A stretch of DNA of 64,000 nucleotides from Ascidia mentula (lineage: Eukaryota > Chordata > Ascidiacea > Phlebobranchia > Ascidiidae): NCBI GenBank assembly GCA_947561715.1, contig OX387203.1, positions 4,712,001-4,776,000 on the forward strand, written 5' to 3'. Positions 1,830-29,500 of this stretch are shown here, piece by piece. Position numbers and translations under genes: made by a program. A model generated the notes under the pieces. The model searched no databases. It saw only the letters and a list, made by a program, of their open reading frames with translations, and was not told the origin of the DNA. Positions within the stretch are counted from its first letter, which is position 1. Each line of letters starts with the position of its first letter.

Positions 1830-4800
1830 AACTTTACCGGGGTTCGAACTGTGGTGCAGAGCATCAATAGAGGGGGGCGTTAACCTCTACACCACGGCTG
1901 GTGACGATAGTTTGGTAACGTAATTGCCCTTTTAGCTTTCTTATTGCATAGGTTTTTGCCCAAAAATAATTGCGACAAGCCTTACTTGACGTGTGTTCGA
2001 ACTGTGTTGCAGAGCATTATGAGATGGGAGCGTTAACCTCTACACCACGACTGATGACGATAGTTTGGTAACATAATTGTCCTTTTAGGTTTCTTATTCT
2101 ATAGGTTTTGCCTAAAACAGTTGGGACAAGCCTTACTTGACGGGGATTCGAACTGTGTTCCAGAGCATTACGAGATGGGAGCGTTAACCTCTACACCACG
2201 ACTGAAGACGATAGTATGGTAACATAATTGTCCTTTTAGGTTTCTTATTCTATAGGTTTTGCCTAAAATAGTTGGGACAAGCCTTACTTGACGGGGATTC
2301 GAACTGTGTTCCAGTGCATTATGAGATGGGAGCGTTAACCTCTACACCACGGCTGGTGACGATAGTTTGGTAACATAATTGTCCTTTTAGGTTTCTTATT
2401 CTATAGGTTTTGCCTAAAATAGTTGGGACAAGCCTTACTTGACGGGGATTCGAACTGTGTTCCAGTGCATTATGAGATGGGAGCGTTAACCTCTACACCA
2501 CGGCTGGTGACGATAGTTTGGTAACATAATTGTCCTTTTTGGTTTCTTATTCTATAGGTTTTGCCTAAAACAATTGAGAGAAGCCTTACTTGACGGGGGT
2601 TCGAACAGTGTTGCAGAGCATTATGAGATGGGAGCGTTAACCTCTACACCACGACTGATGACGATAGTTTGGTAACATAATTGTCCTTTTAGGTTTCTTA
2701 TTCTATAGGTTTTGCCTAAAATAGTTGGGACAAGCCTTACTTGACAGGGATTCGAACTGTGTTCCAGAGCATTATGAGATGGGAGCGTTAACCTCTACAC
2801 CACGACTGATGACGATAGTTTGGTAACATAATTGTCCTTTTAGGTTTCTTATTCTATAGGTTTTGCCTAAAATAGTTGGGACAAGCCTTACTTGACGAAG
2901 ATTCGAATTGTGTTCCAGAGCATTATGAGATGGGAGCGTTAACCTCTACACCACGACTGATGACGATAGTATGGTAACATAATTGTCCTTTTAGCTTTGT
3001 AATTGCATATGTTTTTGGAAAAAAACGATTGGGACAAGCCCTACTTGACGGTGGTTCGAACTGTGGTGCAGATCATTACGGGATGGTAGCTGTAGCCTCT
3101 ACACCACGACTGATGACGGTAGTGCGGTAACCTAGTTGCACTTTTAGCTTTCTAATTGCATATGTTTTTGGTAAAAAACAATTGGGACAAACCCTACTTG
3201 ACGGGGGTTCGAACTGTGGTGCAGAGCACTTTGAGGTGGGAACCTTAACCTCTACACCACGACTGAGGACGTTAACATAATAACCTAGTTGCCCTTTAAG
3301 CTTTCTTATTGCATATGTTTTTGGTAAAAAAACAATTGGGACAAGCACTACTTGACGGGGGTTCGAACTGTGGTGCAGAGCACTTTGAGGTGGGAACTGT
3401 AACCTCTACACCTCGACTGAGGACGTTAACATAATAACCTAGATGCACTTATAGCTTTCTAATTGCATATGTTTTTGGTAAAAAACAATTGGGACAAACC
3501 CTACTTGACGGGGGTTCGAACTGTGGTGCAGAGCACTTTGAGGTGGGAACATTAACCTCTACACCACGACTGAGGACGTTAACATAATAACCTAGTTGCC
3601 CTTTAAGCTTTCTTATTGCATATGTTTTCGGTAAAAAACAATTGGGACAAGCACTACTTGACGGGGGTTCGAACTGTGGTGCAGAGCACATTGAGATGGG
3701 AGTTGTAACCTCTACACCTCGACTGAGGACGTTAGAACGGTAACCTAGTTGCCCTTTCAGCTTTCTAATTGCATATGTTTCTGGGAAAAAACAATTGGGA
3801 CAAGCACTACTTGACGGGGGTTCGAACTGTGGTGCAGAGCACTTTGAGGTGGGAACTGTAACCTCTACACCTCGACTGAAGACGATAGTACGGTAACCTA
3901 GTTGCCCTTTCAGGTTTCTAATTGCATATGTTTTTGGGAAAAAACAATTGGGACAAGCCCTACTTGACGGGGGTTCGAACTGTGGTGCAGAGCACTTTGA
4001 GATGGGAGTTGTAACCTCTACACCTCGACTGAGGACGGTAGTACGTTAACCTAGTTCCCTTTCAGCTTTCTAATTGCATATGTTTTTGAGAAAAAACACT
4101 TGGGACAAGCCCTACTTGACGGGGGTTCGAATTGTGGTGCCGAGCATTATGAGATGGGAGTTGTAACCTCTACACCACGACTAATGACGACAGTGTGCTA
4201 ACCTAATTGCACTTTTAGCTTTCTAATTGCATATGTTTTTGCTAAAAAACAATTGGGACAAACCCTACTTGACGGGGGTTCGAACTGTGGTGCAGAGCAC
4301 TTTGAGGTGGAAACATTAACCTCTACACCACGACTGAGGACGTTAACATAATAACCTAGTTGCCCTTTAAGCTTTCTTATTGCATATGTTTTTGGTAAAA
4401 AACAATTGGGACAAACCCTACTTGACGGGGGTTCGAACTGTGGTGCAGAGCACTTTGAGGTGGGAACATTAACCTCTACACCTCGACTGAGGACGTTAAC
4501 ATAATAACCTAGTTGCCCTTTAAGCTTTCTTATTGCATATGTTTTTGGTAAAAAACAATTGGGACAAGCACTACTTGACGGGGGTTCGAACTGTGGTGCA
4601 GAGCACTTTGAGATGGGAGTTGTAACCTCTACACCTCGACTGAGGACGGTAGTACGGTAACCTAGTTGCCCTTTCAGCTTTCTAATTGCATATGTTTTTG
4701 GGAAAAAACAATTGGGACAAGCCCTACTTGACGGGGGTTCGAACTGTGGTGCAGAGCACTTTGAGATGGGAGTTGTAACCTCTACACCTCGACTGAGGAC

Positions 4801-5960
4801 GGTAGTACGGTAACCTAGTTGCCCTTTCAGCTTTCTAATTGCATATGTTTTTGGGAAAAAACAATTGGGACAAGCACTACTTGACGGGGGTTCGAACTGT
4901 GGTGCAGAGCACTTTGAGGTGGGAACTGTAACCTCTACACCTCGACTGAGGACGGTAGTACGGTAACCTAGTTGCCCTTTCAGCTTTCTAATTGCATATG
5001 TTTTTGGGAAAAAACAATTGGGACAAGCCCTACTTGACGGGGGTTCGAACTGTGGTGCAGAGCACTTTGAGATGGGAGTTGTAACCTCTACACCTCGACT
5101 GAGGACGGTAGTACGGTAACCTAGTTGCCCTTTCAGCTTTCTAATTGCATATGTTTTTGGGAAAAAACAATTGGGACAAGCACTACTTGACGGGGGTTCG
5201 AACTGTGGTGCAGAGCACTTTGAGGTGGGAACTGTAACCTCTACACCTCGACTGAGGACGGTAGTACGGTAACCTAGTTGCCCTTTCAGCTTTTTAATTG
5301 CATATGTTTTTGGGAAAAAACAATTGGGACAAGCCCTACTTGACGGGGGTTCGAACTGTGGTGCAGAACACTTTGAGATGGGAGTTGTAACCTCTACACC
5401 TCGACTGAGGACGGTAGTACGGTAACCTAGTTCCCTTTCAGCTTTCTAATTGCATATGTTTTTGGGAAAAAACATTTGGGACAAGCCCTACTTGACGGGG
5501 GTTCGAACTGTGGTGCCGAGCATTATGAGATGGGAGTTGTAACCTCTACACCACGACTAATGACGACAGTGTGGTAACCTAATTGCCCTTTTAGCTTTCT
5601 TATTTAAAAGGTTTTTGCACAAAAATGATTTGAACATGCCTTACTTGCCTGGGGTTCGAACTGTGGTGCAGATCATTACGAGATGGGAGCAGCAACCTCT
5701 ACACTACGACTGATGACGATAGTTTAGTAACCTAATTGCACTTTTAGCTTTCTTATTGTGTAGGTTTTTGCACAAAAACAATTTAGACCAACCCAACTTG
5801 ACGGGGTTTCGAACTGTGGTGGGTATCACTATCAGATGGGAATTGTAACCTCTACACCCAGGCTGGTGACGGTGACTTGATGAATTAATCGCCATTATAT
5901 CTTCCTTAATGCAGATATGTTACCTTAAAACGATTTGAGGTATAAGAACAATTAAATGAC
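1830..5960 (-). repeat. 27-copy tandem array of 153-bp tRNA-like units
   Basis: The B-box-like motif recurs at about 1839, 1991, 2145, 2297, 2449, 2598, 2750, 2901, 3053, 3206, 3359, 3511, 3666, 3818, 3970, 4125, 4276, 4430, 4582, 4736, 4888, 5041, 5193, 5346, 5498, 5652 and 5808, a mean spacing of 152.7 bp. In many units the segments GTGGTGCAGAG and CTCTACACCAC are near-perfect inverted repeats, so a transcript could fold. Units from 4.5 to 5.4 kb alternate between two subtypes, which suggests recent amplification of a 306-bp dimer. Pol III activity cannot be judged from sequence alone. Confidence 0.88.
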
Positions 5961-6786: not shown

Positions 6787-7540
6787 GACTTCTTAGCCTG
6801 ACTAAACGCAGGGCTACCTGGCCTTGGTCCTTAGCCTGATTTGAGTGAGTTAACAGGGGTGAGAGAGATAATTACCGAATTACTTTTACCCATCCGTGAC
6901 AGGCACACACACGGAGAGGTGACACCAGCGTTAATTTAGTTAGAGTGGGATAAGTCCGAACCCGATGTGAATTAACGGTTACCGGGAAAGATGTATTAAC
7001 TTTACCGGGGTTCGAACTGTGGTGCAGAGCATCAATAGAGGGGGGCGTTAACCTCTACACCACGGCTGGTGACGATAGTATGGTAACGTAATTGCCCTTT
7101 TAGCTTTCTTATTGCATGGGTTTTTGCCCAAAAATAATTGCGACAAGCCTTTCTTCACGGGGGTTCGAACTGCGGTGCCGAGCATTATGAGATGGGAGCG
7201 TTAACCTCTACACCACGACTGATGACGATAGTTTAGTAACATAATCGCCCTTTTACATTTCTTATTGTATAGGTTTTTGGCTAAAATAGTTGGGACAAGC
7301 CTTACTTGACGGGGGTTCGAACTCTGTTCCAGAGCATTATGAGATGAGAATTGTTACCTCTACACCACGACTGATGACGATATTTTAGTAACATAATCGC
7401 CCTTTTAGGTTTCTTATTCTATAGGTTTTTGCCTAAAATAGTTGGGACAAGCCTAACTTGACGGGGGTTCGAACTGTGATGCATAGCATGATGATGTGGG
7501 AGTTGTAATCTCTACACCACGAATGGCAACGTTCGGCTAG

Positions 7541-8709
7541 TTACAAACAGTTACTTGCATCACGCCGCTTCCTTAATGGCAAACCTCACGCTCAACATTC
7601 CCCACTTCTTTTGAAAGCTGTCACGTGAAATACTGACGCAGTGGGGATTTTAATTCACAGCCCGACTTGACCCAGACATAGAGAAATTCTCCATAACTCT
7701 CCATACAGCTGCCAGTAACAACAATAAATGTTTTTCACGGTCTTTGAGGAAGTTCACTCGAATGCCTTATTTAAAACCACACAACGTTCTTTGGGGTATT
7801 GTTGCGCAAAGAATGTGCCAGTTTACAATAACATCAAAACTTTTCGTGTGTCAACCTTTGCGCACAGCAAAATTCGTTCACCTTTTTTTGTCAAAACTGG
7901 GCAACGACAGCTTCATCAAATGAATTTCAACAGACACTTTTGAACTTTATTCCTGACACAACGCAAAGTATTGGAACCTCGGCATCAATATTAGGCGTGT
8001 CAACAATAGTCACTTTTACCGACCCTATCGTATACCGTCGAAAGCCCTAGCGGTATATATGCACTGATAAACGGAATCGATGTGATGTGTGTTTGGTATG
8101 TCAAAAAACAGCAAATGCAGTATATCATAACGACAATTCCACTGTAAGCGGAATTCGGCTAGGTCAGGAAAATGACAACAAAACTGTTCACAATCAAACC
8201 CGTACAAAGAGCAAAGTTTATTCAGTGGGACAATGAAATGAAAAAGCATCACAAGGCACACGCATAAGCACATGAAAGAACCAAGCAATGTACATGTAAC
8301 TTGTAAGGCAACACGTAAGAGCAAATTACTAAAGAAAACTACCCGTATAACACCAGGCATTAAAACATAGAAATGACTATTTCGACATGTTATCATCTAT
8401 TGTCTTCCTGCTGATAAAGAAATGACTGATTTTTGATTTGGATATTATAAAACAGACAATGGTACATTGAACAGTGAATCTATCCAACCAAAAATTAACT
8501 TGTAATTACAAATGCTTCGCACACACAATTTTGACGAAACAAAATGGATAGGACCACAAAAACAACTTGGCAACGTAGGTCGTGACGTCAATGCAGTGCT
8601 TTTGTGGACACATATGCACAAACAAACGACATTTCACACAACGAACAATGAAGAAAAAACAGACAAAATATAGGTGAAGCACAGAGAAAAGCGGAAAAAC
8701 ATTTGGTCC
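7541..8709. other. Gene-free flank between satellite and gene end
   Basis: This is AT-rich unique sequence between the satellite and the 3' end of the minus-strand ZNF598-like gene. The open frames on the minus strand (8025-8396 and 8506-8814) show no recognisable domain. The second overlaps the probable 3' untranslated region. Confidence 0.5.
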
Positions 8710-8813: not shown

Positions 8814-11800
8814 TTACTTAGTGTAGTGAACGGTAAGTGACTCCACCGCCCCCTTCGCATTTCTATGCAAGCTGTTCAGAAAAATAAGTTGCAATAAAAA
8901 CAACTTTATATAATAAACTGCTAGCTTGTCACCCCGTGATGAACCTGATGAAGCGAGATAAAGCTAACGAAAGCTCGTGCAAATAAAGTTTTTAAACAGT
9001 AAGTCTGCCAGAAACAGTACAACACCAATTATTAAAGTTATAGACCTAATACTGACACGGCGTATTGGAGAAATAGCTTTAATAATATAGATCATATTTG
9101 AAAGGATAAACAATGACGATGCTTTTTAAAGCAGTAGTAAGAAAGTCGATTTTACCCAGAAAATAAATGCTTACATTATTGCAATATAAAACTACTGGAA
9201 AATATATTTGCAACTATACTGCTATTAATATGAGAGGTTTACAAAAGCCTATTTGGGTAACTGCCTACAATTTGGCTTTCTGTTAACACTTAGTGTTATT
9301 GACTTATTTGTCTGTAACGGACTTTAGTACACAATATACGATCACAGGGCTATAATGAATATCTGACACTTTAAATGCCTTATGCTGCTCTTTAAACACA
9401 TTCCCAACTCTAAAATGTCACCTAAAAACAACGTAATTACTTACAGAACGTAGTGTGATGATCCAGTAACATTCATGACGTCCTGCACAGCACAGGAAAG
9501 TACTCCACGCATTATCAAACCCCCAACAACGTTTTCGTCGAACCCAGAACAACCGCAGTCCACATTCATGATAGGATCGACGTTCGTGCCCGCTCCGACA
9601 GGTGGCGACAGACTGCGGAAGTAAATATTTCGTGAAAATCTTCTTTCGGAAAGCATGAATACCGAGGTTTTATTTAATTGAATCGACTTTTCCATTTTGT
9701 GGGTAACACATTAAAACGTTTTCATAATGCCATATTTGGTATAAGGATTTCAACATTTTAATATCGGATAGTTCCCTTGTCGAAGGTTTTTAGACAAAAT
9801 GCAAAATTTTAGATTTTAAACAACTGTACTTACAATATCTGGGTTTTCCCCCGACGCGAGAACTCCACAAAGAGACAACTGTGACCGATCTTAAGCGAGG
9901 TTGTCAGAAGTGCGGTGACTTGGGTAGCGTATTTGCCACTGATGTCCGCTGCCAGAGAAAGACATTTGTTTATTTAAAGACCAGTATTTCATATATAGGG
10001 AATTGGAGTTACACCATATAGGGATGTGTAGGACTGCATCCGATCGAAATAATGCACGTGTATGTTTTATTATTCGTCCGGGTCCGAATATTGCCGGCGA
10101 ATCCCATATGAAATGTGAATTTAAACATTACCGAGACTCGCTTATTGTCGTTGTGATGATTTAAGCACAAAAACAGAAATGAACAAAACAAAAATAGCAA
10201 AATTATCGAACAAAAGCGACACTAAACAATAGAATTATTTCGCCACAGCGAAAATAAAAAATAGTGTTTTTTATGGCCGTAAACGAATGAGGCCGAAAAT
10301 TGAATGAAGATATTCGGATTTGGCGCTAAAAAATTAAGCACCGTTTTTTTGCTAAAAATTCCAAGGCAACTTACTAAGAATGTCACAAAACGATTTTAGG
10401 GCATCTTTTGAATGCTGATCTTCTGCTGCTATTCCATTATGATGGGAATAATCTAATTCTTCGAAGCCAGAAATGTCTCCATTCCCACCATTCACTGTGA
10501 TGAAAATAAGTTCAAAATGAGCTTCCTAAACTGTTGTATCCATAGTATAAATGTTTACAAATAAGCTTTGACAAGCCTTACCATTAAAATTAAACCTACC
10601 GGATTCATCATTACTAGCGTTGAATTTGTAATATTCTTCGTCGGATGAGTTGTACACAAAATCTCTTTCGTCGGACGAATTTGATCCAAGCAAAAGGAAA
10701 TCTTCACTGTAACGAAATGAGTAGAGTGTAGAAATAAAAGCTCAAATAAAGTAACAACACATGTTACGCTGGTACCTCATTGTTATAAGACATGCGTATT
10801 TCTTTCGTTTTTAACCAGGACTGGTCTTTTGGCATAAACTAACGTGCTTTATTCTTCCGATGTTTCGTCTGCCATACAGCAAGACTTCATCAGGGTTTAA
10901 CATCGCAATTCAAACGCAAATCACACAATATTGTGCTTTTGAATGCTGTATAGCAGACGAAACAGTGGAAAAATAAAGAACGTTAATTTATGCCAGAGGA
11001 GCATTCCTGTTTAAACTGTAGTTTGTCTGGCAGCAAAAGTAGCACAGTAATATAATAAGCGTTTTGGGATACCCAGGTATGTTGGCATGCAAGTACGATT
11101 TATTTGGTTTATATCTTGATTATTTGCTGCACTTTGTCTCCAAAATCTAGACATTAATCATAATAGTACGGTTTGCATTGTACAGAAATAACTTCTTTAA
11201 AAACAAAGGACTTTTACAATGCATGGATCATTTTAAGTAAGGTATATCATGCGTTTGCTTTACGATGGCACTTTTAGCTATCAATCTCCATCATTACAAC
11301 ATGTTCGCCTGGTACATATTATCTGCATCTTTAACAATAAAGTCTAGTTATTGTGATGCGCCACAAGCCTAACAATCATCTATTTGTAAAGGTGGAAAGA
11401 AACTGTATGCAGTTTATGTTGTTTTGCTATGGTTTAGATAAGCGAACATCATCGGAAACACGTATTTATAAACATCGAAAGTTGCCATAAATATCATACA
11501 CAGAGTAGACGGCTCTTACCTGTAGAAACTACCGTTTTGTATGGGTTGGTTAAGAGCATCTCTTTGTGCAACTACAAGTTGGTCAGTTGGGTCGTTTTCA
11601 TCCGGTGGTTGGCGCGTGGTTGATGTTGATTGGAAAAGTTCTTCGACACTAACTTTCTTGCGCAATTTGTCTGCAATGTGGATTGGTATCGTGAGAATAC
11701 GGTATGGATAGCTACTTTTTTGATACTGTTAATATAACCTACACTGTTTTCAATGCAAAAGTCTCTAAATTTGTCAATATGTACTTTAAAGTATTTTGAC

Positions 11801-12112
11801 AACTAAAGAACATTTTATAAACGTTATTTTACCCTTACAACTCCACAGTACGACCAAAAAAATTAATGCTACTAAATTAAAAAAAGGTATTGGTCTGAAA
11901 ATAATGGGAATAAAAAACTAGCGGTCAAACGGGTTTATTTGTTTCGAAGATCCATGGCCAGAACAACACCAAGAAAGTCTGTAATTGTCTTACCTGTAGG
12001 TGGCGCAGGTGAGGCCGTATTATCTTTTCTATCGCTAACCGAACCAGAACCAGAACTAGCTTGACTAATTTTTCTACTTTCTTGTCCTTGAGGAACGTTG
12101 TTTTCATCATAT
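8814..12112 (-). other. C-terminal tail of ZNF598-like protein (exons 19-25)
   Basis: Residues about 690-968. Exons 19-22 are low-complexity and acidic (Ser/Gly-rich linker, repeated 'NSSDE' motifs), typical of disordered linkers. Exons 23-25 (856-968) look folded, with 'TTSLKIGHSCLFVEFSRRG' and a 'VDCGCSGFDENVVGG' stretch, but I do not recognise a family. If the strong donor at 9445 is skipped, a stop follows after one more codon. If it is used, exon 25 adds 18 in-frame residues before TAA at 8814. Confidence 0.7.
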
Positions 12113-15100
12113 CTGTAACACAGGGATAAGATCATGTTGTGTTTCTCTTAGGGGAATCCAAAAGGGTTTACACAAAAGGGCAATGAAGCCGGTGCAACGC
12201 ATTAGGGCCATGCGTGTCCAGGGGCCCATTAACATGAAAAAATGCCCCATTATCATTGTTTCGTTTAAAACTAAGGGATTTCTACTGTATAGGTTTAGTC
12301 ATAGGGAAATTATTGTATTTTTGTGGATTGGAATACTAAAATAGCAAACGTTCCAGAAATGCTATAAATTTATTGTGAAAGCTAAAAATTCCAGTCGCAC
12401 GGTCACGTGATGGCTTTATGTCAATAAGTGGTTTACATGATTCAACCCAAAATTCTTTAGCTACGAAACAAAATGATTTGCAGACCCAGTCATTTCAAGT
12501 TATATGGAAAATGTTCCCAAATGATCCCATTGCATACTTTTTAATTCAAACGATCCCATATACCAGCCATAACGCAAACACCAGAATAAATAGCTATACA
12601 TTGATTCACAAAAGGGATATTAACATTATAAGGTCAGGACATGTTAAATAGATTTTGAATATATGTGAAATACCTCCATACTCGTTGTGCTCTGTATTTT
12701 GCAGACACATCAGCACCAACTTCACGTCTATCGAATATAAACCGCACCTGAAAAAGAAAAAATGGTGTTTATTTTAAGTTTCGTATGTTCAAAGCGGGGG
12801 TATTTCCCATCTGTACAATCAAGTATCAGTATCGATTATTACGTCACAATGGCATCACATCCATAGATCTTACAACCACAAATAATACGAAGTCACTAGA
12901 GACTGAAAACAAGTTCTTTTGATTTAAATAATCAATAAGCTTCTCCTTATGAGCGCTGAATTTTTACCAAAACAAACCTTTTGATTCTTGGAATCATAAA
13001 CTTGTATGTGTGATAGGGTAAAAAATTCAGCAATTGTATATTTCCATACCTCTGTTCCTATTTTTAACTCGGAGGTGAGATTGAAACTCTCAAAATCCAT
13101 GTCTGTGCGTCCTTTCAAATATGCGCCCTTGTTAAAGTAAATGGACTCTCTGCCTTCCCACACTATGAACCCAAAAGCATCGGATACTTGAGAGATTTTT
13201 CCATTCCCACCTGTAAAAAAGGTGTTTATGATTATTATAATAAACATGGTTTGTGTATTATTAGTTTGGAGACTTTTACACCTTAGCTCCACTTGTTGTC
13301 CACGACGCTAGCCATGTTACACAATGGAAATGGGGTTTTCTGGGTTTATTCGTTATTTTGCGTTTCATACGCAATGCGACTGATGTGTTATTATAATTAC
13401 ATAGGAGCGTTAGGCAAAATCAACTGAAATTGCAAACGATGCCTTTCAAATGCTTCGACATAAACATAATTGCGTTTGAAACGTAGAAATGGCTACATAT
13501 GTTAGTATTGGAACTCAAACCTTAACCGTTACAAACGAAAAAATGCTGTAATACATCTTATAGCAGTGGTTCTTAACCTTTCATATTCGAAACCACTAAC
13601 CAATTCTCGCATGCCTTCTAATATAGAGGTAATGCAATATAATGTATAACCAAACCTAAAGACTTAGGTTCCCACCCCCCCTAGGAATCAATCTCAGAAA
13701 CCCAGTAGGAACGACCACCCCTGGTTTCTTGTGGCAATATTTTTACATACCAACTATTAACAAACGCAATACAAATATGCAGCGAAGAAGCTTTGACATT
13801 TATTCTGAAACATAAGCTTATTAGAACAATTACTGTTAGTTGCTATTTAACCTTTTACCTATGGGAGGGTCATTAGGTACGTTAGTGCTTGAAGTTTGCG
13901 GCGTTTCATTTTTCTTGTCAGCGCTTTGCTCCACCCTAAAACGAGAAAACAGAAAAGGAGTTTTTTAACATCCTGAAAAAGGCTGCTCCATGGTGGCCGA
14001 AACGTCGATATAATAAAATAATTGCCAGAAGAGCCGAATTGCAGCAATAAAACATGCCTGGCAGCATCAGTAGTATTTTATCAGTAGTAAGGTTCAAGTC
14101 ACACGCTTGCAAAGAACACTCACACTTTAATCCACTGAGCTCTGTATTTCGACTTGACCCCGTTTGCATGGGGCTTTCTGGGGTCCAATTTATATTCTAC
14201 CTGGAAATAGAAAACGCATTTGGAAACACAAATTACGGTTTTACAAAGTTTCAACCACAATGCTTATCCGAATCTCTTTCTAATACATATTTTCTTAACA
14301 TGCAAAAAAACTAGAAAAATGTTGAAAATCATTGTTTATTACAAAAATGGAGCCAATAATATGAATTGTGTAAGCTGCATACTGATGGCCACTGTTTCGA
14401 CCTACCAAACGGCCATAGGTTGCACATAGTTTGGGGCCCAACGAATGACGGTAATTGTATAGTCACCACAAAGTGGAAGTTATTGCTTGGAGTTTTGTCG
14501 GCAAAGTTGTCTGAAAGTCACACCAGCTGCAATGATGAGACCTTATAGGTCGAAACAGTGGCCAATTTTCTGCAGCTTACACAATTCATAGTTGTTTATA
14601 CCTAAACTTGTTCACTACGCCAAATATATTCTAAAATGTAAGTCTTATCTAGCAAGACTTAAATAAAAATATGCGTAAAATTGTACCTTAACACCAATGC
14701 GTAGAGTTTTATCTGTAAGAAGGTTGCTGCAATGTCCGTTGCCCTCCAAACCCTCTACGTAAGCCATACGATGGAAGTAAATGTTGTCACAGAAGTCTTT
14801 GGCTCCTTTCCATACGATGAACCCGAATTCGTTGCGCAAGTTGTGGTGAACGACGCCAAACCCGGCTGAAACAGACCAAATTTATATCTAAAAATTAATT
14901 TCTGAAGAGATAGATACCAATGCTTGTGAATTGATCTGGGAAATCATTTCCCATTCTGCTAGTGGCCCTGACGATCTCCACCTATTTTTTAAAATATGAC
15001 CACATATCTTAGAAACATTAGTTTCAGGATGAATTCTGTACAATATATACAAATCGTTGCTAAAGTGCAGTGCAGTGGTTCACCAACTTCTTCAACGACG

Positions 15101-18100
15101 CACTCGGGAAGATTTGACTTTAATTATAAATCTGTCAGGACGATTTGTTTCCCTGTTACCAATTCATTGAAATTTTGAATTTTTTTATATTTGAAATATT
15201 AAAATTGTTACGCGACGCCCTTGGAAGTTAAAAACAACGCACACAGTTTGAGAACCTCTGTTATAGTGCAGACTTTTTTGTCCGCGAAACCTTTCAAGGT
15301 TATGTAAGTTCACAAGAGACCCCTATAACGCAAGAAACGTCAGTTAAATCCAAACGTTATTCACCAAAATTGTCGAAATTATTTTTCTTTAGGCTGTTTT
15401 GTCATGCTTTTGCTTTTCAAAGGCTTAACGAACGTATTTACCAACTTATGCCTTATATTAGATATAGTACCTGATTTAATCCTTTGCATTTATTATAAAA
15501 GCCTATAAGGTTCCACGGAACCCAGTTTAATAATCGCTGGTATCGTTGCGGGCCGTAACTGTCCACCATGAAATTTTTTATACATAATGGCTTTTATAAC
15601 AAAAGTGTACGTTGATGTTTTGCTCCATGGACGACCTTCCCTGGGTACGTTGAATCAAAGGTATTGACGAAATTTTTGTATGCCAGATTTACTGAAAACA
15701 CGAGGAAACTACGGCGACGAAAGAGACTTTCTTGCTACATTGGATAACAGGCGTTTTCGAATATATAGCATAAGATTAAAGTCCCACTTACTTTCAGGAC
15801 AAGCTCCATGCTTTGAAATGTTGGTTTCGACACGTGGACTTAACGACGAAGTTGATGCAGACGGCTTATACGAGACTTTCAGTTTAACGTGCTTTTGGAG
15901 ATTATTCCATGACCTAAAATAAAAGCACAGGGGTTTCGAAACAATCCGGAATTTTACTGAAAGAAAACGTGGTTATTTGAAGTTCCAGCGTTTTTTTACG
16001 GTTTAAGCTTTTAAACCAAATCCTGCTTACGCATTTCTCTATTGGAACTGAATTATAAAGGAGGTCCAATATTATTCACGAAGAGTGACAGACAATCAGC
16101 GTCAGTGCGATCTTTTACTATGAGGTATACAGGTATAATAATTTCGCCTAAACAACATCGCCAGTTCCAGAATTTGGTTTTATATATGCTGATAGTCCGC
16201 CACTCTTTGTGAGTAATTTTGGGTATCTGACAGAGACAATTATTCCGTCTGCAAAGGCCATCAACAAGCTAAACGGACGGAAAGATTTCTAAGATCTTTA
16301 CGAACTTTTCTCTCATAATAAAAAATAATTTAAATGGATTTGCCAAATCTGTCTAAATTTTTGATGTAACAAAATTATTGCCAGAAGCACTGTAGTGCAT
16401 GCAAGTAAAGAAAAGGCTGGAAACGTACGTAGTAACTGGGAGAGGAGTAGCAACTGAATCCAAGGCTGGAAACTGGTCTTCACGTTGAAGTGACGCAGAT
16501 CTGCAACAATACGCCAGAAATTGTAAAGGTCGCTTTTAGAATGTTGCTTAACCTGACAGGTCAGTGACATACCATGGATTCGAATGAGCTACCCAATACT
16601 TTTACTCTTTATTTCTGATTGGTTTGAATTTATCTGCTTTGTGCAACTGCATTGCGGCTTAAACTTGTATGGCGATGGTACTAGAACGAAATAATCGCTT
16701 TTTTTGTCAAAACACGGATTACAGTCAAATAAACATTTTTGGACAACTTGTTGATCAAGCTTAGTGGAGGCAACATTTTGTAATCATTTCAAAATAACAA
16801 AAATTTGTTGAACAGGAAGAGCATCGCGCTCTATTATCACATATATACGTATCGCAAAAACATAAGAAGCCCTCCTGATGATATACTGTTCTAACACAAG
16901 CACTTAAGCATTGATTGCTTATCAAAAATTGTTATTGCTACCTTTCCAATTAAAAGCGGGTACACAAATACGCATAAAAATAGAAATAAGAAATAGGAAG
17001 GTTGGCTCATTTCATCAATATGATCCACAATTGCAGCGAAAAGGCTTTAAATAAACTTCATTAATGGATGTCTATTGTGTAATGATTACGTTGTTTTTAA
17101 ATTGTCTTTATTCAGATTAAACGAAACTGAACTCAGATGTTTCCCTATCCGAAATCTTATACTTTCCAAAATCAAGTTTACTCAAGTACAGAGAACCAAT
17201 TCTCCAACGAGGTGCTTTCCCACCATCGAAAGAAAACGATTGCAATTACGTAAGCGAGATGGCGCAACACTCCAGAACAAACCTTTTTGATGCAAAGATA
17301 CATGCGGGTTTGTATATATGCATCCGCCATCAAATAAAGTGGAAAAGCCCGATTCTGTCACAATGTAAAAGTACGGCCTGTTTCGAACAAATGCGGTTTT
17401 GGAAAACGTTCCATTATTGCAAGAGGGCAGTGTAGGTTTATACAAACAAATGAGATGTGACAAGGGCAGTAGCAGTACGTTCTGAACCAACGGGAACCTT
17501 ACACTAGCATTCACAATAGAAATCATGTTACAGTCTTTGTTAGGCCAACAGCGAGTTCCCAGCTCTGGTAGCACAATGGCAATAACAAACACCAACACAC
17601 CTTCGGCCGCCAAATGAAACAAAACTATTTGTCCTTTGGAAGTTGCGTCACAACGTTCAATCGTTGGTTGGCTGTTGCCAAATATTTACAAAGGATGCAT
17701 TTTAACTACACATTTTAACGTTTGTTGTTTATGAATGATTTTATGTACAGCTATAAATGCACAGTTTTCCGCTTTCCACCTTTAGGGTAAAATTTACTAC
17801 AACAGAATATGTTGTTATACTGAAAAAATGCAATGCTGATGCAACATTGTCAGTCAACCTGCAATAAGCCCTATAAGAGGTTGTTGTACGTTATCTAATT
17901 CACAACATTTTCTTTGGTTTTGGCGAATTGGTTGTGAAACATATACATAAAGGTGTGAATGCCAAACAAAATCATTCATTATCTAATCAACCAGTTAGTT
18001 ATACTCCACTTATTATCAACGCCATTCTATTACCGTGCTCGCTACGCAGACTTTTAGTTCCGCCTATGAACTGTTCACGATGGCGCAACCACATGATTTT

Positions 18101-21100
18101 AGGAAACAAACTTACGAAATATCAGACGATTCGGAGGTGGTGTAAGTCCTTTGTATGCGTAGGGGAGCAGTAGCTGCAGTGATTTTCTCAACAGTGATAG
18201 CTCTCCATTTTGAACGCTGGTGGTCGGCTCTCTGGGCACGGACGCGAACTCTGTTGACACACAAAAGTCATTTGAGGTTGTTAAGAGTTGGATAAACGGA
18301 TTAAAACAATTTTATGATGACATGTTGGTTCGTTGCATGTGGTAGGCAATAGTATGCGAAGCGACGAGAAGTGTTTCTAAGGCACCTAAGTTAAATAAAT
18401 GTCAATGATGTCATTTGAAAATTCTTAAAAAGTGTTCACATATACAAATATAAAGGCAATAAGCAAAAAAAGGAAAAATGAAGGCAGATATAAGTTCCAA
18501 ACTGGTACAACGAAGCCATGAACCAATTTCATCATTCAGTCTGGTTCCAACATACTTAACTGGAAAGTTTCGTCCAATCGTCTGCGTTTTTGTACCAGTA
18601 TAACCATGTATGTTATTACTACAACATAACTAGAAGTTGGCCATATGTTTGTAAAGTTTGTATTCAAGTAATTAATTTGGCTATGGGTCGTACTTGAAAA
18701 CCGCCAAGAAAAGGAAGCGAGTTCCAAGAAGCCTACTCCACTGGCAAATAAAAGGCCAAAGTACAATATTCGAGAGAAATTTCCCAGGTTAAGTAAACAT
18801 ACGGAACCACAGCCATTTCAGTTCCCAATCGGTAATTTAATTCAAGCCCAAAGCTTTATGTAGAGTTTGATTAATCATTGTTACGTCCGACAGGTTTAAC
18901 GTGATTTTGGGGTAAAATGAACAACATCTCCTGGTAAAAAAGGACGTATATTATTAAACAAAAGCTACAATTGAATGTCAATGCCCGCAGACTTGTGGAC
19001 GTTTCAATTGAAGGTCAATAAGGTCGTAACTCGACACAATTTCACGCTTGACTGCAGATGTGACGTACATAAAATATTACGACACTTAATGGTTGCGAAA
19101 CTTTCTTAGCAAAGGAACTGAAACCGATCGTCACAGGCGTGCCCTTATACCTATCATATAAACGCAAACTCCATTGACAGGTCGTCATGTGCGGTTTCGT
19201 GAAAGAATCTTGGGCGCCTTTTGTCATGTGGCTTACTCCAGTAAAACTTGCATTTGTGCCTTTTTTAAGGTTCGTCAAAAATGGATAAGTAAATTTCACA
19301 CATTTTTAATACACAGCTGAAATTTTATACAATAAGAATTTAAAAAAAAATACATAATAAGCAATATCAGCCTTGTGACACTAAACTGTACTTTTCTAGA
19401 TTGGCACTGTTTAAAGAGACTGGTTTTTATTTTTTAAAACACACGGGCTATCGCGAGATCTTCTCACTTTAACAGATGTAAATACAAGACATTTATTTTT
19501 TTTGAACAGTTCTAAACCAGAAAAGTACAGTTGTGTACATATATATACAGGGAATTGCCCTACACTCATCACATAAGCCTAGACGTTGTCGGGCATTCAT
19601 GCTTAAAAGAGCATGAAATGGAACAGTCATGAATGCTTGGGTGGATTCACTTGATCTGTACAATGTGGACTTTTGCTAAATTTCTAGAGTTTTGTCCAAA
19701 AATTTTAAGTTTCACAACATGTAATGGTGCAAATGCAAAATGTTAGTAAACCTTCCATTTCAATCAGAATAAGGGCATGATTATTGCTTTATTGGAGGTA
19801 ACATTCATATATACAAGGTTCCTAATAGCTATTTTTATTGTACAATCACTCACCTCTCTCCATGGGAAAAGTGTGAGGACAAATGCTCATCAAAATCCAA
19901 ATCACAAGCTTGCTGGTTGAAGAAAATGTTGTCGTTAAAAGATAGATCATCACCATCAGGTTCAATAAAACCATAGTTCCATTTCAGGTGTTGTCCAAGC
20001 ACGGTGCCTGTTGATATATATCAAAATGGCAACATGGTCAACTATGTAGATATCATATTTGAGACTGTATTGAAAATATATCATATTTTGAGGATGTCAT
20101 ATTCGAAGATGTTGCTGTGAAAGACATACTTGGTTCTCAACAAATTACATTTAATTGATGAATCCTTGAACAAGAATAGAAATATTGCGTTTTAAACTTT
20201 GCTAGTATACAACTTTTTCTGAAGAAATTTAATAAGAAAACTAAAAATCAGTTCATTTAGAACCAACACACTGAGTTATAAAGTTTTATTAGGTACCCAT
20301 TACAGTTGGAGCACTTACCATCACACAAAATACTCCCATCAGGTTGGTAAATTATTGGGGCATCTTTCTGCGGTGAGGTAAATTCAAACCCTGAAAAAGG
20401 AAAAAATTATGACCATGTAAAGGTGTTGTGTACTACGGCGTTTCACCAATTAGAGCGACTGAGAAAAATGAATGCCACGCTCACCCCGGCTATGTTGCCT
20501 GTCAAACATTCCTGGAATTTGTAGCTGCTGTTCCTGTTTTCTTACAAACTTGTTACTCATATTTGGATGTGATTTCACACGATGAGCCTGAAGAAAATAA
20601 TTCAATACTCCAATAAAATATACATATCTAAAAAATATACATATCTCACAAAAATATGGTATTTCACAAAAACAAAACAAAGCTATTAGCATTTTTTCGC
20701 TGAAAAACTGCATTTGAACAAAAATACAGACTGCTTTGGAGTGATTGTGATAGTAGGGCAATGTGGTCGGCAACTTTACCTGCAAATCAACTTCATTTTT
20801 GAAAGCAGAGTTTAAGTTAAGTTGACAATCCTCAGCATCACAAGCGAAGTGTCTTTCCATGATATGTTCCCACAATCCTTGTACGTCACTAAAGAAGTTA
20901 AGAATCACATACTGTAAGACAACATTATGAGGTGTTTAAAACCTCGCATAGCATAACAAGGTTTATCATACATGAACAAAGTTATTACGATTGTCTTACA
21001 CATAGAAAATGTTGTCAGCATCTTCACAAAGTTTGCAAGTAATGTGATTCATCCTGAGATGACGATAAAGTTCATCTCGATCCAGGTACCGTTGATCACA

Positions 21101-23168
21101 AAACCTTTCGAAAATCAAATGCTAAATAACTATAATATACATCTGGAAATGTGTGAATTGCAACTTGCAAGTATGTATTCTCAGTTTAATGAGATAACAT
21201 ATATTTGTGAAAATGGCAAACTTTGTCAGATAATTTTGTTATCATTTAGCAAGTTTCACATATTTTATGTATATAGAGGATTATTTTCTGTAATCTACCA
21301 TATCTGTTCCTATTCATGTATCAAAACGTCATTTACACCAGGTTTCGAATAAGAGATAATTTGTTACATTTAGATATTTTAATAAATGAGGCTGTTTCCA
21401 CAAGGCTCTGTATACACCACTTAGTCCTTAATTAACCATATTTATTTCAAAATATGTTAATCCAGGGTGGAACAGTGACAACACTGAATTGTACTCACTG
21501 GCACAAGGGGTGGCCCTTATGTGCACTCCCTTCACCGTTGTCACCTTCACTTTGATGATCTTCAAGCTCCGAAGATGAATAAGATTTCCTCTCGGATGTA
21601 AATTTCTGCAAACAAAATCCTGGGTGAACAACTCTTGATGCAGGCAACGTGCACAAAATGTTTTTTAACACACAAAAATGTACAGATTTTACCTTGCACT
21701 GCTTGATACATATTTGACAGAAGTATTCCCTGTGTTTTTCCTTTAGGTGCTTTTCGAGTCGATCAAATTCCTCAAATATAGAGTTGCATTGTGTACAAGG
21801 ATGTTCTAATAGTTGCCTGCATGGATTCAAGCAGAATTAATCTGTGTTATGCAGTTGAAAAGGCTTTATGTGTTAATACCATATTAGAGAAACGTATTCA
21901 TTTTTAGACCCCTAGTTTCCATCACATAAATTTTTCTGCATTATAGAAAAAACACAACAACCTCAATATATGAACATAAAGGGTAAAAAAAACAAGTTGG
22001 GCTTTTTTGTCATAACCCACAAAAGTCAGCTAACCCCAAGTTTTGAATACCCAATGTTAATAAACTTCAACTTACTTATAACTATTCTGTATTTTACGGC
22101 TGTCAAAATATATTCCATACTTTGGCTCCTTGTTAAGATTAGATAAGTCTGCAGTGTTAAATTTCTTGAGATTAACTGTAAATATCACCTGAAAATAAAT
22201 TCAGACAGGTTAATGTGACAATACACAAGAAAGGAAGGACTGTCAGTTTACTGCACCATAATTGAGCTTGTGAAAATGAACATAAACCTTAGTGTGAGAG
22301 AAAAATACCTTAGTAAGTTCTGCTCTGCATACAGGACATTGTTTATCCAAACAAAGAACTCTTAGCTTCGTACAGCATCTAAGCCAAAAAAAATCACATA
22401 AATTGCAGAGAAACAATTTTTTTTTTCAAAAACAAACAAACATTTAAGAGTTAGCATACTTAAAGCATATAGCATGAAAGCAGACCCCATATGCAAAGAT
22501 TTCAATGTCCTCAGAACACACCATGCAGGATGGACTTTTTTTCAACTCTTTAACTGTAAAATATGCAAATTTAATTTTCTATGTATGTAAAGCTTCATAC
22601 TGCCATACTTATGCTGTCCATTGCCAAATCAGCAGGCGGCTTTGGGTGGTTTAACTCGACCACAGGTTGTGGTGGAGAGATGGATACATCACCATTTGTG
22701 AGATTGGAAGGTATGTCACGGTCTTCTAGTAGAAAAACTCTTTCGTCTACGATGGCAAATTTATCAGGATGGTTGTGAATAAACTTCTCAAATCCAACCC
22801 TCTGTAGAACAACAGTTTGTGTCAATATTACTCAACAAAAATTCAAAATAAAACAACAGGTAAAACTGTACACTACGATGCTTTTATTAGAATGTTCATC
22901 TTCTGTGGCAAGTTCACGACTGAGAAAAGAGATCACAAAATATTCAGATCTCTAATAATAATCAATTTGAAGCAAACTCCATTAAAATCATAATTTGCCC
23001 AAAATCAATCCCATAAAACAGCTTTCACCGTACCTTTATGTACTTCTTATTTTTTTTGGTAAGGGTATTCATGTAACTACCCAGACTGTTCAGGATCATT
23101 GATCGTTCCCGTTCTCTTTGTAGACGACTGATAACAATTTGAATGATTTCATTTTCAATTGAACCCAT
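8814..23168 (-). CDS. ZNF598: ZNF598/Hel2-like E3 ligase with three cold-shock domains
   Basis: The model has 25 exons, 2907 nt and 968 residues. Every junction has GT/AG and a matching codon phase. Exons (plus coordinates, in transcript order): 23034-23168, 22609-22801, 22460-22553, 22309-22378, 22076-22188, 21693-21816, 21499-21605, 21000-21104, 20780-20888, 20485-20587, 20319-20390, 19854-20007, 15792-15913, 14687-14865, 14124-14200, 13859-13935, 13050-13210, 12674-12747, 11994-12112, 11520-11670, 10600-10706, 10375-10494, 9834-9948, 9445-9612, 8814-8871. The front half aligns with ZNF598/Hel2, which ubiquitinates small-subunit proteins on collided ribosomes in the cytosol. The back half carries RNA-binding cold-shock domains in place of the usual proline-rich disorder. 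I saw no start codon or promoter-like break between the halves. Two fused neighbours remain possible without cDNA, but the phases argue for one gene. Confidence 0.85.
10805..11018. mobile_element. Fold-back (MITE-like) element in intron 20
   Basis: Two arms of roughly 70 nt are imperfect reverse complements. Both carry GGCATAAA, TAACGT, CTTTATT and GTTTCGTCTGC blocks. The element lies in the intron between 10707 and 11519 of the ZNF598-like gene. No coding capacity is seen, so it would be non-autonomous. Confidence 0.65.
12674..13210 (-). other. Cold-shock domain 3 (exons 17-18)
   Basis: Residues about 613-690 include 'GKISQVSDAFGFIVWEG' and 'SIYFN' (634-638), then 'LKIGTE', a phase-0 intron, 'VRFIFD' and 'KYRAQRVWR'. 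It is laid out like domain 2, with the same intron phase at the same place (phase 0) and the same exit phase (2). Confidence 0.8.
14124..14865 (-). other. Cold-shock domain 2 (exons 14-15)
   Basis: Residues about 502-586 include 'FGFIVWKG' (514-521) and 'NIYFH' (528-532), then 'LRIGVK', a phase-0 intron, 'VEYKLD' and a closing 'KYRAQWIKV'. The domain resembles the paired cold-shock domains of UNR/CSDE1. Its intron position and closing motif match domain 3, which points to internal duplication. Confidence 0.8.
14362..14588. mobile_element. TA-flanked MITE, 227 bp
   Basis: Terminal inverted repeats TGAATTGTGTAAGCTGCA are perfect at 14362-14379 and 14571-14588, and TA dinucleotides flank both ends as in Tc1/mariner-type insertions. 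Internal GGTCGAAACAGTGG blocks form a second inverted pair. It sits in the intron between exons 14 and 15. Related ends recur near 52170, 57360 and 61790. Confidence 0.75.
17107..17112 (-). terminator. Poly(A) signal after intronic open frame
   Basis: AATAAA on the minus strand, about 70 nt past the stop of the open frame at 17182-17671. It would serve an intronic polyadenylation event. Confidence 0.3.
17182..17671 (-). CDS. Possible alternative last exon in intron 12
   Basis: A minus-strand frame stays open for 163 codons inside the 3.9-kb intron. An AACAG acceptor at 17671 would join it in frame to exon 12 (phase 2). A stop at 17182 is followed after about 70 nt by AATAAA (17107-17112). 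Use of it would give a shortened protein with RING and fingers but a broken first cold-shock domain. The new tail has a hydrophobic run (VLVFVIAIVLPEL), eight cysteines after it and two N-glycosylation-type sites. It could instead be a nested gene or chance: there is no ATG at the front of the frame, and the polypyrimidine tract is modest. Confidence 0.3.
20485..21816 (-). other. C2H2 zinc-finger block of ZNF598-like protein (exons 6-10)
   Basis: Complete ligand sets are visible at C209/C212/H225/H230, C278/C281/H294/H299, C302/C305/H322/H327 and C330/C335/H352/H357. A further finger starts at C235/C238. The 'HKGHPLCQFCDQRYLDRDEL' stretch corresponds to the highly conserved finger region of ZNF598/Hel2. 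The usual aromatic in the 'ERKWY' motif is Ser here. This region is known in the family for ribosome engagement. Confidence 0.88.
22309..22553 (-). other. RING-HC domain of ZNF598-like protein (exons 3-4)
   Basis: The eight zinc ligands are Cys119, Cys122, Cys134, His136, Cys139, Cys142, Cys155 and Cys158, spaced C-x2-C-x11-C-x-H-x2-C-x2-C-x12-C-x2-C. The core 'CCTKLRVLC' and 'CPVCRAEL' match the ZNF598 RING. An intron splits the domain at Lys141. All ligands are present, so E3 activity is expected. Confidence 0.9.
22609..23168 (-). other. N-terminal segment, possible winged-helix domain (exons 1-2)
   Basis: Residues 1 to about 109 precede the RING. The first 70 or so look like a small helical domain ending in a beta hairpin: a helix (EIIQIVISRLQRER), a second helix, then FEKFIHNHPDKFAIVDERVFLL. 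The 'fxkFlxxhpdxFxvxxxxVxL' pattern resembles winged-helix modules of LOTUS/OST-HTH or Egalitarian type. Vertebrate ZNF598 starts close to its RING and lacks this. The fold is inferred from pattern only. The start is the first ATG (23168), and the exon ends in a clean donor. Confidence 0.45.
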
Positions 23169-26560: not shown

Positions 26561-29500
26561 ATGACTGAGAATACACCAAAACTACAGTTAGATAAAGAGG
26601 TTAATGGCAATATTGGAAAATTAAACTTGGAAGAAAAGACTAATCTCCAGTCAAAAGGTAACTACTGATACTTTGCTTTTTAAGACTTTGTTGCAGGGTA
26701 CCTGGCAGATAGCTGGTACTATAAGGTTCACAATTATAATTGACACCGAAAACACTATTTAAGGCCCCCGGCAAGGCCAACTTTTTGCACAATATGTTGT
26801 TGTGTTAGAGCTGCTGAATCAGCCAGTGCATTACAGGCACGCGTTCCATCACAGTGTGGTGTGATCAATGGGTTCGACATGATTACTTGCGTGTGACGTC
26901 AGTCTTGTCCTCTCTGTGTCAACAAAGTTTGGCGAGCCGGTACGAGCTGATATGTGGCGGCCGGCGAGTTACGGCGCGTTGGGGGCGTGCCAGCTGATAC
27001 GTGCGTAATACCACGCTGTGAGGGCACCGCAAGCTACAAACAAATAACAGTCAATTATGGTTACATGTGGTTGCATATTAGTTTTACTGCCTTCATTGGC
27101 GTTGGATAGCATATGAATAAACTGTAGTCTGTTGTACAAAAATGTGTTTAATGCGTTCAATACAACAGCAATAAATGAGACATTAATTAATTAATATACA
27201 ACTGTTTTGAGTCGCCGACCTTATGCAAGAAGTATAGGCGTACATCAAGATGATATCTCCAACATTAGCTTTACATTATATATAAGATCCACTTTTCGCA
27301 AGGGCAAGGTCGTATTAGCGGCCGAAATGGACTTGAAACCCAATTATAAGAGTACGTTGCAAAAAGGTGTCAAGCCTCCAAAATGTGCCAACAATTCGTT
27401 TCGTGTTTATGTGCTTAGCCATTTATCGAACCTTGAACATATTTTTGCAAATTTAGACCAACCGTCCACCTCAATGCAAGATGCGTATCGGGTCCTATTG
27501 CGTTCTATTGGCGAAGATCCAAACAGACAGGGCCTTTTAAAAACGCCGGATAGAGCAGCGGAGGCTTTGAAGTTTTTCACAAAAGGCTACGAAGAGAGCT
27601 TAGATGGTAAAATATTGTTCAAAGTAATTTGGATATTTGTAAAAGGTTTTGTACGGAAACAACATTTATGGTAACGGTTGCTTTAAGGGTTAAGATCAGT
27701 TGCTTTTGTTTAAAAAATAGTAAAAAAAATATCTATTGCTTTACCATCAGCATGCTCAGTGCCTTTTTTACATATAACTACTATATATATGTACAATGTT
27801 AGTGCCTTCACAGGTCATTTTATATTTTCAACGTTAGTTTTATTGTTACCATTTAACTGGCAAGAGCCTCACCAAAACCAGGGGCATATGTAACAATATT
27901 ATTCCCTGTGTTGAAAGTTTCCAATTATTTGATCACGTACGAAGCCGCTTTGTTCCCTCAGCGTTTGAATAGTTGTAAATTCTAGCATGTCAGACGCGCT
28001 GTGTTTAATTTCCAACCCCTTTCACCGCAGAGCTAGTTAACGAAGCAATATTCGACGAAAATCACGACGAGATCGTCATTGTCAAAGACATTGATATGTT
28101 TTCGATGTGCGAGCACCACCTAGTGCCCTTTGTTGGCAAGGTACGACTAAAGTTTTATTATTTTTGCCACGATATTGCATATAACTATTATAATATATTT
28201 TTTATGTAACAAAATATGTTTCTGGGGTCAAAATCTATTGACCTTCGAGTAAGACAAATATATTTCGCTAAAAAAGCATCGTCAGTGTCTGTAAAAACAA
28301 CGTAAAAAGATCTAAATATATATATATATTGTATGTAGCTATATAAAAGGACAATTTGTTTTATCTTGTTCGTCTTACTGATGATAAATACGCTTGCTTG
28401 TGAAGGTTATCGCTGAAAAACTTAACACACAGTACAATTTCGGGTCACGATATTTCCAATGCTGTTTTTTCCCTAACTATACAATATTTTTTGTCAGAAC
28501 ATAATCTCGTCTTGAAATTTTTTTATTTGCCATTTTTAGAAATTTGTCTTAATTTCTGATAATTTTGTCGTGATTTCAGCATCATAAACCACTCTTTACA
28601 ATTGCCCAATCGATATCAACATCTTTCATCATAATGATTGCATCATTTTGCCTTTTTATTGCAGGTGTGCGTCGGTTACATTCCCAACAAGCGTGTGATC
28701 GGATTAAGCAAACTTGCCAGGTGCGTATATAAGCAACTTGACAGTAGTGTGTTTGTTTTTTGTCAACTCGTACAAACGAACCCTCATGAACTATTTCATT
28801 ATGAGTCATCTGTCGTCTTCGCCATTTTTTTTAGTTCCGTTTGAAAAACACACGTTGGTAAATGCTTTGTTAAAATGCAAAATAATCAGTATTGTTAACA
28901 TTACAATGATAGTGTAAAGTTGCGATACAGTGCAAAAACTAAATTAAGTGTATTTGATTTTATTATCTACGGTGAAAACCTACTATTCTATGAAAGATTT
29001 GCAAAACAAAATGCTTAATTCTGTTCAAAATAAATATACGAAACATATATGACTGAATCATTTGGGACTTAACAATTACCCCTTGTAACTATGCCTTGCC
29101 TGTAGCCGGTGTTGATGTAACCATTTTTATACAGAATCGTTGAGATGTTCAGTCGGCGGTTGCAAGTTCAAGAGCGAATGACGAAACAGATTGCCAATGC
29201 TCTTGTCGAAACTCTGGAGCCAAATGGTGTTGCCGTCGTCGTTGAGGCGTCGTAAGTTTGCTAGCAAGCGTATAGCAACAGAAAGCGTAGTTATATTTAA
29301 ATTTGCGCTATGCCTGCCAGCAACAGCAGTGCAGTATAGCTTTTTTTCTGTACAAAATCACGAATTATGGCAAACCGAAATGTTATTTTTGCAAGCTTGT
29401 ATTGTGCTACTGTTCGGTATATTTGCATAAAAATTTTTAAATTATGGTTAATAAATGTTATATTGATTTGCAAAGACAGATGCGTCGGTTACCGACCTGC

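Follow-up and report, generated by a model that had tools for sequence, protein, structure and literature searches.

A ZNF598-related RING/C2H2 protein joined to a winged helix and three divergent cold-shock domains in ascidians

The 64,000-nucleotide stretch of the Ascidia mentula genome analysed here (contig OX387203.1, positions 4,712,001 to 4,776,000; hereafter the window) carries on its minus strand a gene encoding, in this order, an Egalitarian (Egl)-type winged helix, a RING domain and C2H2 fingers of the kind found in the collision ligase ZNF598/Hel2, three cold-shock domains (CSDs) and a C-terminal region of unknown family. This architecture, its presence in three ascidians, the intact Cys/His pattern of the ligase core, the status of the gene as a separate paralogue and the absence of a PPG motif are directly established. 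Most likely, the gene encodes an ascidian derivative of the collision ligase that would read RNA, and we give about even odds (0.5) to a ZNF598 paralogue having turned into a multi-domain, RNA-binding-type ubiquitin ligase that would combine docking on ribosomes with reading of RNA.

A single gene shared by at least three ascidians

The coding sequence starts with an ATG at 23168 and ends with a TAA stop at 8814. A first-pass annotation of this DNA had described a 25-exon, 968-residue model, with reading phase agreeing across 24 introns. When the splice chain was rebuilt with 25 exons and the same ends, it gave 963 residues (small choices differ) with 24/24 introns GT-AG and phase-matched, so that the start, stop, strand, domain order and phase agreement of that model all stand. 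One exon of the C-terminal region (exon 25, 9612-9445) had been overlooked, and was recovered by comparison with the protein of Phallusia mammillata; because it is entered and left in phase 2, the frame survives its omission. With this exon included, the gene comprises 26 exons and encodes 1,019 residues; its introns are GT-AG and in phase in 25/25 cases, and the donor of exon 22 is ambiguous (10582 or 10600, each in phase).

The Phallusia protein, whose database entry we take to be transcript-derived, aligns end to end with the model (53% identity over 99% and 54% over 100% in two comparisons, 60% in the alignment), and in Clavelina lepadiformis the protein LOC143469989, 36% identical, shows the same order of domains. 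The two species belong to different orders, Phlebobranchia and Aplousobranchia, respectively. When the whole 64 kb was searched by tblastn with the Phallusia protein, 22 rows had E < 1. Eighteen of them line up colinearly on the minus strand between 23168 and 8817, three are cross-hits among repeated domains, and the last falls outside the gene, at 47401 (E 0.51). With the Clavelina protein, the same window and threshold yielded 10 rows, two of them cross-hits and none past exon 15; its support for the later exons comes from the protein alignment. Since the Phallusia protein matches end to end and in colinear order, and the Clavelina protein keeps the same domain order, we conclude from sequence comparison that the RING/C2H2 block and the three CSDs are one gene, as the first-pass annotation had claimed, and that an accidental join is ruled out as far as the sequence allows. 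The search for proteins combining RING, C2H2 and CSDs in related species, which it had suggested, yielded matches in both, and by these matches the fusion occurs in two ascidian orders and, counting this genome, in at least three ascidians. That the model wrongly joined a CSD gene to a neighbouring fragment of ZNF598 is scarcely credible: introns of about 0.9-2.2 kb do separate exons 12 to 15, but the idea is already contradicted by the single database proteins of Phallusia and Clavelina, as well as by the conservation of exon 11 with Phallusia and by the reading phase kept across all introns.

The features of the gene, in window coordinates, are the following:
8814..23168, minus: whole coding span, 26 exons, 1,019 residues, colinear with the Phallusia protein
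22715..23168, minus: exons 1 and 2 (residues 1-74), winged helix of the Egalitarian type (Egl domain)
22076..22533, minus: exons 3-5 (residues 117-202), RING of the ZNF598 type with linker, RING_ZNF598 match
20485..21816, minus: ZNF598-type C2H2 block, exons 6-10
20319..20390, minus: exon 11, linker from the C2H2 block to CSD1, 17/24 residues identical to Phallusia and 3/24 to Clavelina
18116..20007, minus: exons 12 and 13, encoding CSD1 (residues about 407-483) and, in exon 13, some linker
15792..15913, minus: exon 14, linker from CSD1 to CSD2, in phase, 21/41 residues identical to Phallusia
14124..14865, minus: CSD2, exons 15 and 16
13859..13935, minus: exon 17, linker from CSD2 to CSD3, in phase, weakly conserved (6/26 identical to Phallusia)
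12674..13210, minus: CSD3, exons 18 and 19
10375..12112, minus: exons 20-23, low-conservation linker, 13-19 Phallusia identities per exon of 40-50 residues
8814..9948, minus: exons 24-26, encoding the C-terminal region of unknown family, with conservation in Phallusia
9445..9612, minus: exon 25, absent from the first model, 168 nucleotides, phase 2 to 2, 38/56 residues identical to Phallusia

An intact ligase core in a paralogue of ZNF598

In the window protein the Pfam family RING_ZNF598 (PF25447) is matched with E 8e-25 and 87.5 bits against a cut-off of 27. The 8 Cys/His positions of the RING and 20 more in the N-terminal C2H2 block are invariant in 3/3 fusion proteins and in 7/7 further proteins compared (a set to which the window model does not belong), the assignment of particular residues to zinc binding being our reading of the pattern. 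This RING-C2H2 block is 35-41% identical to that of ordinary ZNF598s from octopus (41%), argonaut, Varroa (35%) and the same genome (39%).

The ordinary ZNF598 of A. mentula lies on another contig (C67) as a single uninterrupted frame of 812 codons, whose product bears eight FPxL motifs and two PPGF motifs. Given this separate ZNF598 with its usual FPxL/PPGF tail, the window gene is, on sequence grounds, a paralogue and not the species' own ZNF598, and the first-pass reading of it as ZNF598/Hel2 itself fails; as the ordinary gene is kept, the collision ligase of the species has not been replaced. The fusions carry few FPxL motifs (none in the window protein, one in Phallusia, three in Clavelina), and the PPG[FLI] motif occurs in none of the three, while a PPG motif is present in 4/6 of the ordinary or related proteins checked and is thus not universal. 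Neither the PAH domain nor the C-terminal ZNF598 finger was found at E <= 1 in the 25-exon model, Phallusia or Clavelina, nor by Pfam in the exon 24-26 region; neither is reported in the 812-residue ZNF598 frame of the same genome either, and the trait is therefore not universal. PPG-hydrophobic motifs are the ligands of the GIGYF2 GYF domain according to PMC12249416, and because the fusions hold none, the GIGYF route has probably been lost in them.

In a tree of the RING-C2H2 block with nine rows, the three fusions group together (100/99), the window protein being nearer to Phallusia than to Clavelina, and the five ordinary ZNF598s, that of the same genome included, stand apart; 3/6 inner branches are open and the rows are too few to date the duplication. 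Downstream of the ordinary gene on C67 lie two partial, broken RING-region-like stretches (places recorded on this contig: L015, 5479-7917; L017, 865-1128, which is also the L013 place, and 7441-7701). The ordinary ZNF598 itself has the appearance of an intron-less copy whose duplicates have decayed.

Three divergent cold-shock domains

Three divergent CSDs are recognisable by profile-level homology. Aligned individually by hhalign to CSDs of the same genome, they reach probabilities of 93.0% (CSD1), 95.6% (CSD2) and 85.1% (CSD3), versus 2.9%, 0.6% and 0.2% for the reversed sequences, and a profile built from nine copies (three domains from three species) matches five own-genome CSDs at 96.4% (E 1.4e-9). 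The own-genome alignment takes in five of the six places with a Pfam CSD match (L006 was left out), among them domains that we take to be YBX-like and CSDE1-like, and the C-terminal region of the fusion, run as a control against it, scored 0.1%. A profile search of PDB sequences at E <= 10 returned 29 sequences, 24 of them CSD proteins with YB-1 as the best solved match; the other five were a cystatin, an uncharacterized protein and three RNA-recognition motif entries of Nab3. Each CSD begins directly after a phase-1 intron and is split internally at the same point, before the V of a G-x-x-V step (phases 2, 0 and 0). This identical intron placement suggests that CSD1-3 arose by copying of a single unit of two exons.

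It is improbable, in our view, that these repeats are scaffolds of the oligonucleotide/oligosaccharide-binding type that do not bind RNA, the protein then being a structural variant of ZNF598. Their strong divergence would fit such a role, Pfam CSD matching only 1/9 isolated copies even at E <= 10, as would the absence from every copy of the KWF motif that YB-1 shows in the PDB-profile alignment. However, two segments that hold RNA-stacking aromatics in known CSDs, G-F-I and I/V-F/Y-F-N/H/D, are kept in 9/9 copies, their aromatic stretches being conserved in part.

The N-terminal winged helix and the C-terminal region

An Egl-domain fold was recognised at the N-terminus, where the first-pass domain list had overlooked it, and in Clavelina the WH_Egal family is matched above its cut-off of 27 (29 bits). 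The winged helix is 18% identical to that of Egalitarian, which has three such domains versus the one found here, and Pfam reports no exonuclease domain in the fusion proteins. Elsewhere in the genome, an Egalitarian-type winged helix lies within a 1,070-residue open frame (C1:4479707-4479901, L023), the only WH_Egal match at E <= 0.1 in a search that ran exon by exon and missed the domain of the window gene itself. At the other end of the protein, the C-terminal region is 63% identical to Phallusia and only 17% to Clavelina, so that its sharing with the latter is uncertain; Pfam gave no match to the region of exons 24-26, and a sequence search for solved relatives found none.

Proposed function

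We propose that the intact RING/C2H2 core would dock on ribosomes and ubiquitinate 40S proteins like ZNF598, and that the added domains would give the enzyme another way of reading the mRNA, the winged helix recognising structured RNA and the CSDs recognising single-stranded RNA; the action of the ligase may thereby be tied to particular transcripts or RNA features. Lacking a PPG-type motif, the protein would probably not call the GIGYF-4EHP translation block, and for this reason its outcome would differ from that of ordinary ZNF598; we infer a change in ribosome quality control. The first-pass idea of an RNA-reading ligase holds in that RNA-binding-type domains are joined to the core. It was incomplete, since human ZNF598 itself, according to PMC5504347, already binds RNA, with crosslinks to tRNA, mRNA and rRNA; RNA reading would thus extend a known property.

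Several results weigh against this proposal. Pfam CSD finds nothing in the window protein at E <= 1, its genome-wide search (196 Mb, 79 contigs) returned six places of which none lies within the window gene, and the Clavelina protein scores 22.5 bits, under the cut-off of 27. The finding of no CSD folds in domain searches, which the first-pass annotation had named as decisive against the fusion, is therefore what Pfam gives, and it is the profile methods that overturn it. WH_Egal stays below its cut-off in the window protein (22.3 bits) and in Phallusia (17.4 bits); in a Foldseek comparison of the winged helix, nothing matched at E <= 0.001 and Egl came 44th; and the winged-helix profile, run against PDB sequences, did not find Egl (choline kinase 0.0022, SF3B1 0.042). 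The AlphaFold2 model has a mean predicted local distance difference test score (pLDDT) of 40.4 and a predicted template-modelling score of 0.25, with residues 404-808 unfolded (block pLDDT 24-42), and so lends the CSD fold no structural support; it is a poor test of that fold, because the RING-C2H2 part is weak there too (pLDDT 35-76). The PPG motif is also absent from Varroa ZNF598 and P0007, so its absence is not unique to the fusion. Finally, the stem branch of the fusion group is long (1.07), which could reflect a lost ribosome function.

The main rival has the protein leave the ribosome: an RNA-binding ubiquitin ligase outside ribosome quality control that keeps the core as its catalytic part and is aimed by its winged helix and CSDs at proteins of messenger ribonucleoproteins or at particular mRNAs (e.g. 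maternal or viral). We consider this a serious contender, somewhat short of an even chance. The long stem, the ordinary ZNF598 retained separately, the PPG motif in 0/3 fusions and the PAH domain reported in none of them all speak for it, and MKRN1, likewise a RING ligase that binds RNA, has the ribonucleoprotein component PABPC1 among the proteins it acts on (PMC6805484). Against it, the C2H2 block keeps 20/20 Cys/His positions, and the RING-C2H2 block keeps 35-41% identity to ordinary ZNF598s from four genomes. A more specific form of the RNA-reading collision ligase, which we regard as rather unlikely, would be a second, RNA-gated branch of ribosome surveillance in ascidians, in which a ribosome (through RING/C2H2) and an RNA feature (through winged helix and CSDs) would both be needed, and stalls on selected or foreign transcripts would be handled apart from ZNF598/GIGYF.

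Genomic neighbourhood

Near-identical head-to-tail units with long open minus-strand frames occupy 3449-5445 of the window, with similar units near 7000-7500. ARAGORN and Rfam found no tRNA at these units, which are probably a tandem repeat array and not a gene. Upstream of the fusion gene, on the opposite strand, an open frame (27195-27674, plus) reads like what is presumably the start of GTP cyclohydrolase I.

Relation to known systems and significance

The fusion resembles ZNF598/Hel2 in its RING_ZNF598 domain, its C2H2 block and the FPxL motifs of Phallusia and Clavelina, and differs from it by the added Egl-type winged helix, three CSDs and C-terminal region, as well as by the features not found in it (the PPG motif, the PAH domain and C-terminal finger and, in the window protein, FPxL). 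It shares several CSDs per chain with CSDE1/UNR and its best solved profile matches with YB-1, whereas its own CSDs are very divergent and attached to a ligase. MKRN1, a member of another RING family with CCCH fingers, is likewise a RING ligase bearing RNA-binding domains, the fusion using CSDs and an Egl domain instead. As MKRN1 acts in ribosome quality control (PMC6805484), it shows that an RNA-anchored RING ligase can do so.

Among the open-access literature matches listed, no title or abstract start describes such a fusion. The domain fusion is real and its anatomy strongly supported, and ascidian embryos are experimentally tractable. PMC5504347 presents ZNF598 as a sensor of translational stalling that is uniquely conserved. 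A chordate paralogue in which RNA-binding-type domains flank the ligase core would be a natural experiment on the RNA needs of that core, and the fusion would offer a route to transcript-specific ribosome quality control.
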